A DNA stretch of 64,000 nucleotides, taken from positions 1 to 64,000 of IMG/VR virus record IMGVR_UViG_3300026382_000009; one strand, given 5' to 3'. Under the pieces are notes generated by a model that saw only the letters and a program-made list of their open reading frames with translations, made no database searches and was not told the origin of the DNA. Both the position numbers and the translations under genes were made by a program. This document shows, piece after piece, positions 15,331-33,881 of the stretch; the first letter of the stretch is position 1; each line of letters opens with the position of its first letter. This DNA comes from a virus.

Positions 15331-15432
15331 ATTTACTTATTCGGGCCTCTCTGGTGAAAAAATTATAATTTGAAATAAAAATATATTTCAAATTTGTAAA
15401 AGCCTCTCAGAGAGGCCCTGATAAATAAATTA
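15331..15432 (-). promoter_or_regulatory. Structured 5' leader C of the late sigma gene
   Basis: Outer arms 15331-15353 and 15410-15432 pair over 21 bases: 10 of GGGCCTCTCT/AGAGAGGCCC plus 11 AT-rich, with a 2x2 internal loop and one G-U. An inner perfect 11-base stem pairs 15368-15378 with 15385-15395. The fold starts about 8 bases after the expected transcription start. The outer stem is homologous to leader A with compensating changes. The remaining leader, 15257-15330, is AT-rich and shows nothing else. Confidence 0.7.
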
Positions 15433-30240: not shown

Positions 30241-30948
30241 TTAATATACAATAGCACCAATATTTTTAATATCTTGAAAATCGTTAGTATTGAAAGATTT
30301 TTCAAAAAATACTGTTCCATTAGAAGTGGTATTTTGTGTAGTTTTATAAAATTTATTTAACTTTAAATGCATCTGGCCATCTTGTAATACCCATTCGTCA
30401 TCATAAATCCAAATTGTTTCTGTTTTATTAAAATCTGTAAAAATAACATTTACATTATATTCCGCATCTTGTTTTTTCAAAATAAAAACATGTCTATCAA
30501 ATAATGTATTTTTATTTTGAAAAGGAATAATTAAAATATCACCTGAATTTACTGTAGTTTCTATTTGCTTATAAACAACATTACCAATATCTTTTATTAA
30601 TCCATTTTCTTTATCTTGTTGTAAATTACCTGTCGCTGAAAAATTATTTAGAGCAACATAAAATTTTGTTTTAGTTTCATCAGTAATTAATTCATTTTGT
30701 TTAAAAGATACACCTGCTGAATATGTTTTTAAAATTGGTTCAACATCACCAGCTCTAACTTCAACAGCCCATCCATTATCAATAGCTGTTTGAATAGTTG
30801 TATTATGATCTATATTTTTTAGATTTTTTATTTTGTAAAAATTAATTTTTCCATCAATTATAACAGCAAAATGTTCTCCATCCATTAATTTATCTATTCC
30901 AGTGTTTGATAGAGATTCAAATAATAAAGTGCTTGTTATTTTCTTCAT
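30241..30948 (-). CDS. Tail fibre-associated protein, 235 aa
   Basis: A beta-rich protein whose first 80 residues (GIDKLMDGEHFAVII) align loosely with the N-terminus of the LamG fibre at 27601, suggesting a shared attachment module. The C-terminal part is strand-rich (FDRHVFILKKQD). It is the first gene after the five-hairpin stretch, and the ribosome site (AAAGGA) sits just past the last hairpin. Exact role unknown. Confidence 0.55.
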   Translation of the reverse strand: MKKITSTLLFESLSNTGIDKLMDGEHFAVIIDGKINFYKIKNLKNIDHNTTIQTAIDNGWAVEVRAGDVEPILKTYSAGVSFKQNELITDETKTKFYVALNNFSATGNLQQDKENGLIKDIGNVVYKQIETTVNSGDILIIPFQNKNTLFDRHVFILKKQDAEYNVNVIFTDFNKTETIWIYDDEWVLQDGQMHLKLNKFYKTTQNTTSNGTVFFEKSFNTNDFQDIKNIGAIVY

Positions 30949-30967
30949 TTTATTCCTTTTGCAGTCA

Positions 30968-31100
30968 CTCGTTTAAATTTACCTTAGTAAACTTAAACGA
31001 GCAACTGCATCAAGTTGCCCTAACCTGACAACTGTTTTAAGTTGTCTTAAACGGTCAACTGCTATAAGTTGACCTATCGAGGTCACTTTGTTGTGACCTC
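30968..31100 (-). repeat. Array of five consecutive hairpins
   Basis: Five perfect or near-perfect inverted repeats stand in a row between two genes: 30968-31001 (15-base stem, one mismatch, 4-base loop), 31001-31018 (6), 31027-31046 (7), 31053-31074 (8) and 31079-31100 (8). The last four all have 6-base loops. The middle three share the inner stem AACT/AGTT but differ in the outer pairs, with changes compensated on the other arm. The spacers are 6-8 bases or less. There is no U-run after any stem, so it is not a simple terminator. Both strands could fold. Confidence 0.85.
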
Positions 31101-31112
31101 TGTAGATCAACT

Positions 31113-33686
31113 TTAATAAATAATTTTTAATGTTTCATAAACACCAACGTAATTTTCAGTTGTTCCCCATCCTGTGCTAATAGTAAAAATATTAAAATAA
31201 CGTTTTCGTATTTTATAAGGCATAAATGGTGAATAATATGTATTTCCTGCTTCATCTAGAAATCTAAATCTCACAAAATAATTTGTTCTCCATTTTAATG
31301 ATCCAGAATTATTTCCAAAGAAAACTCTATTTTTGTTAGTTCTATATGCTGGAACTAAATGTCCAGATAGTTGTTTAGGTGGTCTGTTATATATAGATGT
31401 TTTATTGTTAACAGATTGAGCTGGATTTTCTCTCCAAATTTCTATGTCAAAATCTAAAGATGTATTGTATTCAAAAGCTGGTAAATAAAATGTATTAAAA
31501 AATCTTTTTCTTATAATATGTTTTTTACTAAAATTATTTACATTAGTATACTCACATTCATATGTTACTAAATCCACCTGTTTTACATCAGATAAATAGT
31601 ATTTTTGTCCATCAACATCAATGTATTTTGTTATCATTTTAGGTCTTACATTATCTAAAACTGTTCCATCATATTTAGTAGCTAATAATCTTCCATCAAA
31701 GAAAACTTCTGGTAAATAATATTCATCATATTCTAATGCAAAAATATCATTATTATTTTTAGTATAACCTATAAGTTTAACTTTTGTTGTATAATTTAAA
31801 GGTAATTGAGACGATGGCATATCTGGAAATGAAGTCCATTCCCAATCAGTTCCATAAGTTAAAAGAACACCATTTTTATACAATCTAACTTTACTTTCAT
31901 CTTTCAAAAAGTAAAATCCAAAATCAAGAGTTTGTGATACTTCTACGTATTTGCTACCTTTTCTATAACCTTTTTTAACTTCTTTTCTTGGAATTTGTTT
32001 ATCATAAGCAAATGCCACACCATCATTATTCGTGGCATTAATAGACATTATTTGTGTTATATCATCAAAAATTGAAACATCTTTAAAATAATCTGCTTTT
32101 AATCTAGTATTATCATGAATGTGTAAAAATTTTTTATTCAAAGAAACTTTTATGTTTGGTTTATCAAATTTTTCCCCAATAACAAAATTTAATGAATTTT
32201 CAGTAGAATAAGGGTTTCCTATCCAAAGAGTTTTATCAGAATAAACTAATCCACAATTTTGATATTCAGATACATAAAAATTTTGACCTAAATGACTTAT
32301 GTATGTATTATCTGTATATGGTGTATTTGATGTTGTTGCTACTATTCTGCTACCAGCATAATTATCAGTAGAATTTGTGTTTTCTAAATTAATTTGTGTA
32401 ATACCATAATCGTCATTTTTAATTTTTATAATTTGAGCATTTGATTGAATTTCTTTGTCTTTAGTAATTTTCCAATAATATTTTGTAGATGTATTGTCTC
32501 CATTATCATGATTAGCATATAAATATGATTCATTGTTAGTAATTTTTAAACCTGTTCCTTCAAATAAATTATTTCCTTGGACATAAGCATTTATAAATTT
32601 ATTACCAAAATCAATTGTAAAATCATTTGAATCAGTTCCATTGTTTACAAATGATAATTTATAATTAGTTGTTAAATTAATAGTTGTATTTTCAGATAAT
32701 GTTCCACCTAATTTTACTGTTCCTGAATTCTCTGTTAAACCATTAGTAAAATTATAATTTTTTGATTTTCCAGTAACATTATCAAATAAAATATCGTCTG
32801 TTCCAATTTTAGCCGGTTTTCTAATTTGCCAAATAGTATTTTTGTTGTTGTTACCTTCACCAACAGCTACAAGATAATATGAAATGTCTATTCCATTAGG
32901 AAAATCTGGATGTCTTTCTAATGCTTTATCTTTGTATAAATATATTCCATTCTCTTTTGGATTTGTTTGACCTGCTAAAAAGATAACATCGCCTTCTTGT
33001 GTTTCAATACCATCTATAATATAAGGACCATTTTGAATACCAATATCATAATTTGTATCAGCTTTTAATCTTACTCTAATTGTTCCAGCTCTAGTATTCA
33101 CGAAACTGTAAGGAACAATTTCACCCCTTTTAGATAATCTGTTTTCAGAATAAAAATCATCAGGATTTTGTAAATAAAAATTTGTAGCACTTCCAACATA
33201 CAAAGCAAAATAATCTTTTGTCAAATAACCAGTTAATTGTTTATTTTTATTATTTGGATCTACGTATTGAAAACCTGATATGCCATTCCCAAAAGACCAA
33301 TCAGCGTTTGGTTGAGTAGAACTTGGATGATGAATTATTAATTGTTTATCTTGTGTATTAATAATAGTATCTTTAGTTAAATTTCCACCTAATTGAATAG
33401 TATCATCATTAATTTCAATACCATTATTAGCTGATAAATTTGATTCAAATTTTGCTTCTTGCCAATTAGTATTGTCTGATAAATCTCCATTACCTGAATC
33501 TATCAATTGATAGAATTTACCATCTTCTTTTAAATAAACTAACATACCCCATTTTCTTTTTAATTGAGGTATGTTATCTCTTTCAATAGAATTTTCTACA
33601 GTAACATATCCACCTATTAAATTCTTATCTTCAAGTAATCCAAAATTTCCTCCAGGTTCAAAAGTTCCTGTAATTTTTATTCCCAT
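31113..33686 (-). CDS. Large tail fibre protein, 857 aa
   Basis: The N-terminus (MGIKITGTFEPGGNF, then KWGMLVYLKEDGKFYQL) resembles the attachment domain of phage fibre proteins. It is followed by a long Asn/Thr-rich repetitive shaft and a C-terminal beta domain with TNYFVRFRFLDEAGN. The likely role is host recognition as a trimeric fibre. It is the largest adhesin gene here, preceded by a 195-base non-coding leader and followed by the five-hairpin array, so its mRNA is bounded by structure at the 3' side. Confidence 0.7.
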   Translation of the reverse strand: MGIKITGTFEPGGNFGLLEDKNLIGGYVTVENSIERDNIPQLKRKWGMLVYLKEDGKFYQLIDSGNGDLSDNTNWQEAKFESNLSANNGIEINDDTIQLGGNLTKDTIINTQDKQLIIHHPSSTQPNADWSFGNGISGFQYVDPNNKNKQLTGYLTKDYFALYVGSATNFYLQNPDDFYSENRLSKRGEIVPYSFVNTRAGTIRVRLKADTNYDIGIQNGPYIIDGIETQEGDVIFLAGQTNPKENGIYLYKDKALERHPDFPNGIDISYYLVAVGEGNNNKNTIWQIRKPAKIGTDDILFDNVTGKSKNYNFTNGLTENSGTVKLGGTLSENTTINLTTNYKLSFVNNGTDSNDFTIDFGNKFINAYVQGNNLFEGTGLKITNNESYLYANHDNGDNTSTKYYWKITKDKEIQSNAQIIKIKNDDYGITQINLENTNSTDNYAGSRIVATTSNTPYTDNTYISHLGQNFYVSEYQNCGLVYSDKTLWIGNPYSTENSLNFVIGEKFDKPNIKVSLNKKFLHIHDNTRLKADYFKDVSIFDDITQIMSINATNNDGVAFAYDKQIPRKEVKKGYRKGSKYVEVSQTLDFGFYFLKDESKVRLYKNGVLLTYGTDWEWTSFPDMPSSQLPLNYTTKVKLIGYTKNNNDIFALEYDEYYLPEVFFDGRLLATKYDGTVLDNVRPKMITKYIDVDGQKYYLSDVKQVDLVTYECEYTNVNNFSKKHIIRKRFFNTFYLPAFEYNTSLDFDIEIWRENPAQSVNNKTSIYNRPPKQLSGHLVPAYRTNKNRVFFGNNSGSLKWRTNYFVRFRFLDEAGNTYYSPFMPYKIRKRYFNIFTISTGWGTTENYVGVYETLKIIY

Positions 33687-33750
33687 TATTCCCTCGCTTA
33701 TGTAATTTATAGAATATTTTAAATCATATAAATATTTAACAAATAAATAC

Positions 33751-33860
33751 GTTATCAGAACTTATTAGAGCTTATCAGATGTGCTCTATTCATCGAATTT
33801 TATTTTAAAATATAAATTATAATCAAATAATTAAACATTCACCAGAGTCCTCCAGAGAGG
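33751..33860 (-). promoter_or_regulatory. Leader region D with short repeats
   Basis: The 195-base gap between 33687 and 33881 has no gene. It holds three 10-base tandem repeats (33751-33780; GTTATCAGAA, CTTATTAGAG, CTTATCAGAT), a motif also found once in leader A. It also has CCTCTCTGGAGG on the minus strand (33849-33860), identical to a 12-base segment of leader A on the plus strand (32-43). A TATAAT at 33816-33821 lacks a -35. The region looks regulatory, but no promoter class can be assigned. Confidence 0.4.
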
Positions 33861-33881
33861 AAAATAAATTGTATATCATAC

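Follow-up and report, generated by a model that had tools for sequence, protein, structure and literature searches.

The intercistronic RNase III hairpins of phage T7 mostly have folding energies of -18 to -25 kcal/mol in 50-70 nt; for the comparison made here we used the positions that we take to be those of sites R0.5, R1.1, R1.3, R4.7 and R18.5. Hairpins of a second described kind are formed by the enterobacterial REP elements, which are extragenic, palindromic, 14-40 nt long and present in multiple highly similar genome copies, and whose hairpins in the mRNA are barriers to ribonucleolytic degradation (PMC12306157).

The locus analyzed here belongs to an uncultured bacterial virus and was studied in a window of 64,000 nucleotides (positions 1 to 64,000 of IMG/VR record IMGVR_UViG_3300026382_000009). 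The whole record comprises 109,194 bases and, given its 126-bp direct terminal repeat, 109,068 bp are probably the complete map of the virus. The genome is AT-rich (23% G+C), practically all of its long genes are carried by the minus strand, its tail genes are like those of phages with contractile tails (families of sheath and of baseplate wedge proteins were recognized) and it encodes a RecA-like protein related to UvsX. Because all the genes neighbouring the locus are on the minus strand, the relevant mRNA is the reverse complement of the shown strand, and the structures are described in mRNA sense as hairpins HP1, HP2 and HP3 and as dyads A to E.

As in T7, hairpins of ~50-60 nt lie between phage cistrons, and HP1 has the same layout of lower stem, internal loop and upper stem with similar or greater stability, whereas the T7 hairpins are single and here there is an array of three, HP3 is without an internal loop and the sequences are dissimilar. 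In form, HP1 and HP3 correspond to the T7 type, as intercistronic hairpins of ~50-60 nt with about two helical turns of stem, HP2 is weaker, and cutting at any of them is a prediction. The element resembles the enterobacterial REP/BIME sequences in that palindromes cluster in transcribed extragenic regions close to a stop codon; the single dyads, of 20-22 nt, are extragenic palindromes of REP length and the 50-nt HP3 is longer. REP elements, however, are dispersed, while here the motif is confined to the gap, the copies are only partly alike and there is no REP transposase, no Y1/REP transposase having been found in the genome. We rejected membership of the REP family, as CAACT-N6-AGTTG occurs only three times in the genome, always in the gap, and no copy with ≤5 mismatches was found elsewhere. 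The element is best filed among the stable intercistronic hairpins, a known kind.

Organization of the element

The array occupies the gap between two genes of the tail operon that the earlier note had both described as tail-fibre genes. The upstream 857-aa gene is indeed fibre-like, with weak matches to fibre/decoration families (PHROG 2647, 11518 and others) over residues ~206-359, but the downstream 235-aa gene matched no family, fibre families included. Genes in the tail operon are mostly separated by ~9 nt; only the 857-aa gene is both preceded and followed by a long gap, of 195 nt and 164 nt, respectively, the latter filled by the array. Because of these gaps and of a degenerate leader copy upstream, the fibre gene gives the impression of being controlled separately within the operon, though its base composition is the same as that of its neighbours.

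The leader copy belongs to a palindromic element of ~115 bp (GGAGCCTCTCTGGT...ACCAGRGACCTCCAGAGAGGYTCTGATAAGTAAATTT) with some six copies in the genome, most of them immediately ahead of a start codon: on the minus strand near 111, 105530, 89907 and 68821, on the plus strand at 15346 and, in degenerate form, at 33860 (minus strand). A TATAAT-like box is often present upstream and AAAGGAGTTAAAATG directly downstream, and the copies form a putative family, either of structured 5′ leaders or of binding sites.

In the gap after the fibre gene we found the five inverted repeats previously noticed there, four of them with 6-nt loops and dyads B, C and D with a common inner CAACT/AGTTG; the dyad centres lie at 31089.5, 31063.5, 31036.5, 31009.5 and 30984.5, with spacings of 26, 27, 27 and 25. 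The loops show no conservation apart from a U...C closing in three. The computed extent of the structured element (Table 1) replaces the 30968-31100 originally proposed: its first paired base, in HP1, is the last base of the TAA stop codon of the fibre gene, and the last pairing, in HP3, stops four bases short of AGGA, the Shine-Dalgarno sequence of the 235-aa gene, with 11 nt from HP3 to the AUG.

The minimum-energy fold of the mRNA strand consists of three larger hairpins with -76.1 kcal/mol, and the five-hairpin register, with -54.4 kcal/mol, is ~22 kcal/mol worse. The 5′ arm of dyad B doubles as the closure of the 11-bp lower stem beneath A in HP1, its 3′ arm can join the 5′ arm of D in a stem that encloses C (HP2), and the 3′ arm of D sits within the 23-pair stem of HP3, so that D and HP3 (extended E) exclude each other. 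Given the shared arms and the energy difference, the five-hairpin row is one of two alternative registers, and the less stable one. The description as five consecutive hairpins thus holds for the dyads but not for the predicted mRNA, which prefers three larger hairpins and in which the fourth and the fifth are mutually exclusive. When folds of the growing transcript were computed, D formed first and was then displaced by HP3.

Table 1. Features of the intercistronic element and of its neighbourhood (window coordinates)
Feature	Position	Strand	Remarks
857-aa fibre/decoration-like gene	31113..33686	-	ORF; stop codon TAA 31113-31115; upstream of element
Gap upstream of fibre gene, 195 nt	33687..33881	-	holds degenerate copy of genome-repeated palindromic leader
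Whole structured intercistronic element	30960..31113	-	z -11.9; genome's most stable 100-nt window
HP1: 11-bp lower stem, 2x2 internal loop, 8-bp upper stem (dyad A), AACAAA loop	31066..31113	-	predicted fold -28.4 kcal/mol, 48 nt
Dyad A: GAGGUCAC-AACAAA-GUGACCUC	31079..31100	-	
Dyad B: GGUCAACU-UAUAGC-AGUUGACC	31053..31074	-	
HP2: imperfect lower stem around dyad C	31008..31062	-	predicted fold -15.2 kcal/mol; weaker, ~50 nt
Dyad C: GACAACU-UAAAAC-AGUUGUC (22-nt register)	31026..31047	-	
Dyad D: GGGCAACU-UGAUGC-AGUUGCUC	30999..31020	-	exclusive with HP3 (3′ arm in common)
HP3 = extended dyad E: 23 consecutive pairs including three G-U, UAAG loop	30960..31009	-	predicted fold -30.7 kcal/mol, 50 nt
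AAAGGAAUAAAAUG: Shine-Dalgarno-like stretch and start codon of 235-aa gene	30946..30959	-	sequence, ORF start
235-aa gene	30241..30948	-	ORF, start 30948; downstream of element

Fold statistics and selection on structure

The minus-strand fold of the array has -77.8 kcal/mol, corresponding to z scores of -11.9 to -12.4, and none of 200 shuffles was as stable; on the plus strand z was -9.96. The most stable 100-nt folding window of the 109-kb genome, on either strand, falls in the array (-43.2 vs. a mean of -9.9, sd 4.5, i.e., ~7 sd from the mean), whereas in T7 and in parts of IME392 and Colly_1 the most extreme windows depart from the respective means by only 3.7-4.5 sd. The array also holds three of the 15 perfect stems of the genome with at least 7 pairs and at least 3 G-C pairs; when perfect stems of at least 6 pairs are counted it holds four, a number that 3000 dinucleotide shuffles of its sequence did not once produce. 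The dyads are genuine, far beyond chance, and unusual for this genome.

The difference in total energy between the strands, 10.4 kcal/mol, was matched by 60 of 546 genome windows, so the assignment to a strand rests mainly on gene direction and on the G-U pattern. Five stem positions, of which HP1 and D have one each and HP3 has three, depart from Watson-Crick pairing, and every one of them is G-U in the mRNA but would be an A-C mismatch on the other strand; in the predicted folds, this pattern favours the gene-sense RNA as the molecule under selection.

The earlier note had based its argument for selection on compensating changes of the outer pairs. Among B, C and D, one of the eight pair columns is changed on both sides (U-A/A-U/G-C), a second has G-U in place of G-C and a third does not pair in C; 87 of 500 shuffles reach the same covariation score. 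Covariation as proof of structure was rejected, the copies, three and paralogous, being too few, and conservation of structure is therefore backed by the fold statistics instead. Selection on structure, not on sequence, is well supported by predicted fold energy, stem number and G-U pattern, even if the covariation argument itself is weak.

Families excluded and search for relatives

No Rfam family matched above the gathering cut-off in the window. Several known kinds of element were considered and rejected: a hairpin or cruciform of a DGR beside a variable fibre gene, with no RVT_1 (reverse transcriptase) match in the genome; an invertase site, with no serine recombinase in the genome; and a CRISPR array, in that the 27-nt-spaced copies are 68-81% alike over 31 nt and spacer and repeat are indistinguishable. 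An intrinsic terminator, taken as a G+C-rich stem with a direct U-tract, was found after none of HP1 to HP3, and a weak GUUUAAGUUU follows D only. The array is thus not a row of ordinary terminators, as had been stated, and the accompanying claim that there is no U-run was nearly right, but overlooked this run after the fourth stem, which a loose terminator scan listed.

An open frame of 35-50 codons crosses the array (window 30970-31109, minus strand) and contains the 9-residue repeat GQLIAVDRL/RQLKTVVRL/GQLDAVARL, as expected, because a 27-nt repeat must give one. We discarded a coding origin of the array, for which there was neither a convincing start site nor a match with tblastn (phages) or Pfam.

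No relative of the gap was found in viral_contigs with TerL, 235-aa, fibre, sheath (single and aligned) and baseplate queries, in genome_contigs through the sheath alignment, or among phages and plasmids by blastn of the array. Sheath relatives at 64% and ~36-41% covered the sheath region only. Searches of viral_contigs and genome_contigs with repeated-dyad DNA patterns likewise returned no relative of the gap, the eight viral matches including coding coincidences and unrelated arrays. CAACT/AGTTG hairpins were seen in viral contigs L009 (16-435), L012 (~2758-2814) and L013 (~2622-2672; e.g., GGCTCACAACT...AGTTGTGAGCC); these arrays resemble the gap in their repeated dyads with varied outer pairs but differ from it in G+C, spacing, flanks and copy number, with no sign of common descent, and are perhaps convergent.

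A near-identical phage is present in metagenome 3300026484 (L002 and L019), with 99.99-100% identity over the compared stretches. Its contigs end at window 27280 and 43081, flanking the tail-fibre module, and these breaks may reflect strain variation in the fibres. Two putative inteins were also noticed. In L004 (6334-8438, minus strand) a helicase gene is broken at its Walker A motif, one ORF ending with SATGCLDKNEKIRVIIED and the next opening with an intein-like sequence and resuming at VQNNIVHHNSGKS, which looks like a split or broken intein; in L003 (6796-9534, minus strand) a ribonucleotide reductase large-subunit gene appears to contain an in-frame intein, the insert starting with CQSKENEIITKDGIKS and ending with VLSNGCISHN.

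A candidate boundary for mRNA decay or processing

Our preferred reading, held tentatively and with somewhat less than an even chance of being right, is that the element is an intercistronic decay or processing boundary which would make the fibre cistron independent of the 235-aa cistron and of those after it. Once transcribed with the fibre gene, the gap would fold into two very stable end hairpins of ~50 nt and a weaker middle one, so that few unpaired bases would separate the 857-aa stop codon from the site where ribosomes bind for the 235-aa gene. The hairpins would stop 3′ exonucleases and/or be cut by the double-strand RNase of the host (RNase III), and the fibre and downstream mRNAs would then be distinct RNAs that differ in level and are protected at 3′ and 5′ ends of their own. 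We infer transcription across the gap, cutting by RNase III and an effect on mRNA life or stoichiometry. HP1 and HP3 (48 and 50 nt; -28 and -31 kcal/mol) have the size of T7 intercistronic hairpins, but HP3, a long uninterrupted stem, has no internal loop, which counts against an RNase III site; no phage-encoded RNase III was recognizable in the genome. Among the functions put forward earlier, mRNA stabilization and effects on ribosomes fit pairing that runs from the stop codon to just before the Shine-Dalgarno sequence, while a protein platform and a sponge RNA have no specific support: the loops are unconserved, save for the U...C closing in three, and the genome has no second copy of the motif. 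The sponge RNA was rejected, nothing specific having been found beyond the structure.

The placement of the hairpins, HP1 starting within the stop codon, at its last base, and HP3 ending 11 nt before the AUG, would also suit a translational brake or insulator, in which HP1 stalls terminating ribosomes and HP3 prevents re-initiation, so that each cistron is translated on its own or less fibre is made; REP hairpins of E. coli lying <16 nt from the stop codon do stall ribosomes and lower expression (PMC12306157). One hairpin would be enough for this, however, and three are left unexplained. We regard such a role as rather unlikely, although it is one of the two main rivals, and it may act jointly with a decay or processing boundary.

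There is a similarly low chance for the other main rival, that the element works as DNA, either as regular dyads bound by a protein or as a palindromic scar of recombination or insertion marking the border of an exchanged fibre cassette. The near-regular spacing of 26, 27, 27 and 25 bp, the G+C of the array (38% in a 23% genome), the long gaps flanking the fibre gene and the assembly breaks of the near-identical phage around the fibre module are all consistent with it. On the other hand, the fibre gene does not differ from its neighbours in composition, the dyad mismatches are G-U on the mRNA strand only, the genome is without reverse transcriptase, Y1/REP transposase and serine recombinase, and the dyads have no second copy in it.

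That the CAACU/AGUUG arms make a two-state RNA, whose five- and three-hairpin registers are chosen by a phage or host protein or RNA, seems improbable. The use of B and D arms in HP1, HP2 and HP3 and the formation of D before HP3 in the growing transcript would permit it, but switching would be one-way, the three-hairpin state being ~22 kcal/mol more stable, a duplicated dyad cross-pairs automatically, and the loops are unconserved. Lower still we place an undescribed phage RNA device in which the tandem-duplicated dyad, with its two exclusive folds, would respond to a factor of the phage or the host by making fibre synthesis independent of the rest of the tail operon. Equally doubtful is that the fibre transcript ends here, at a transcription terminator or an attenuator, with later genes served by other promoters: dyad D followed by GUUUAAGUUU was listed in the terminator scan and attenuation by stable REP hairpins has been reported (PMC12306157), but HP1, HP2 and HP3 have no proper U-tract, the 235-aa gene begins 11 nt past HP3 with no room for a promoter between, and the more stable HP3 uses up the arm of D.

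Phages have to produce fibres and other tail parts at fixed ratios from long late operons. In the one locus of one uncultured phage considered here, the compact hairpin array, which fits exactly between a stop codon and the next ribosome-binding site, is a candidate for post-transcriptional control of fibre dose.
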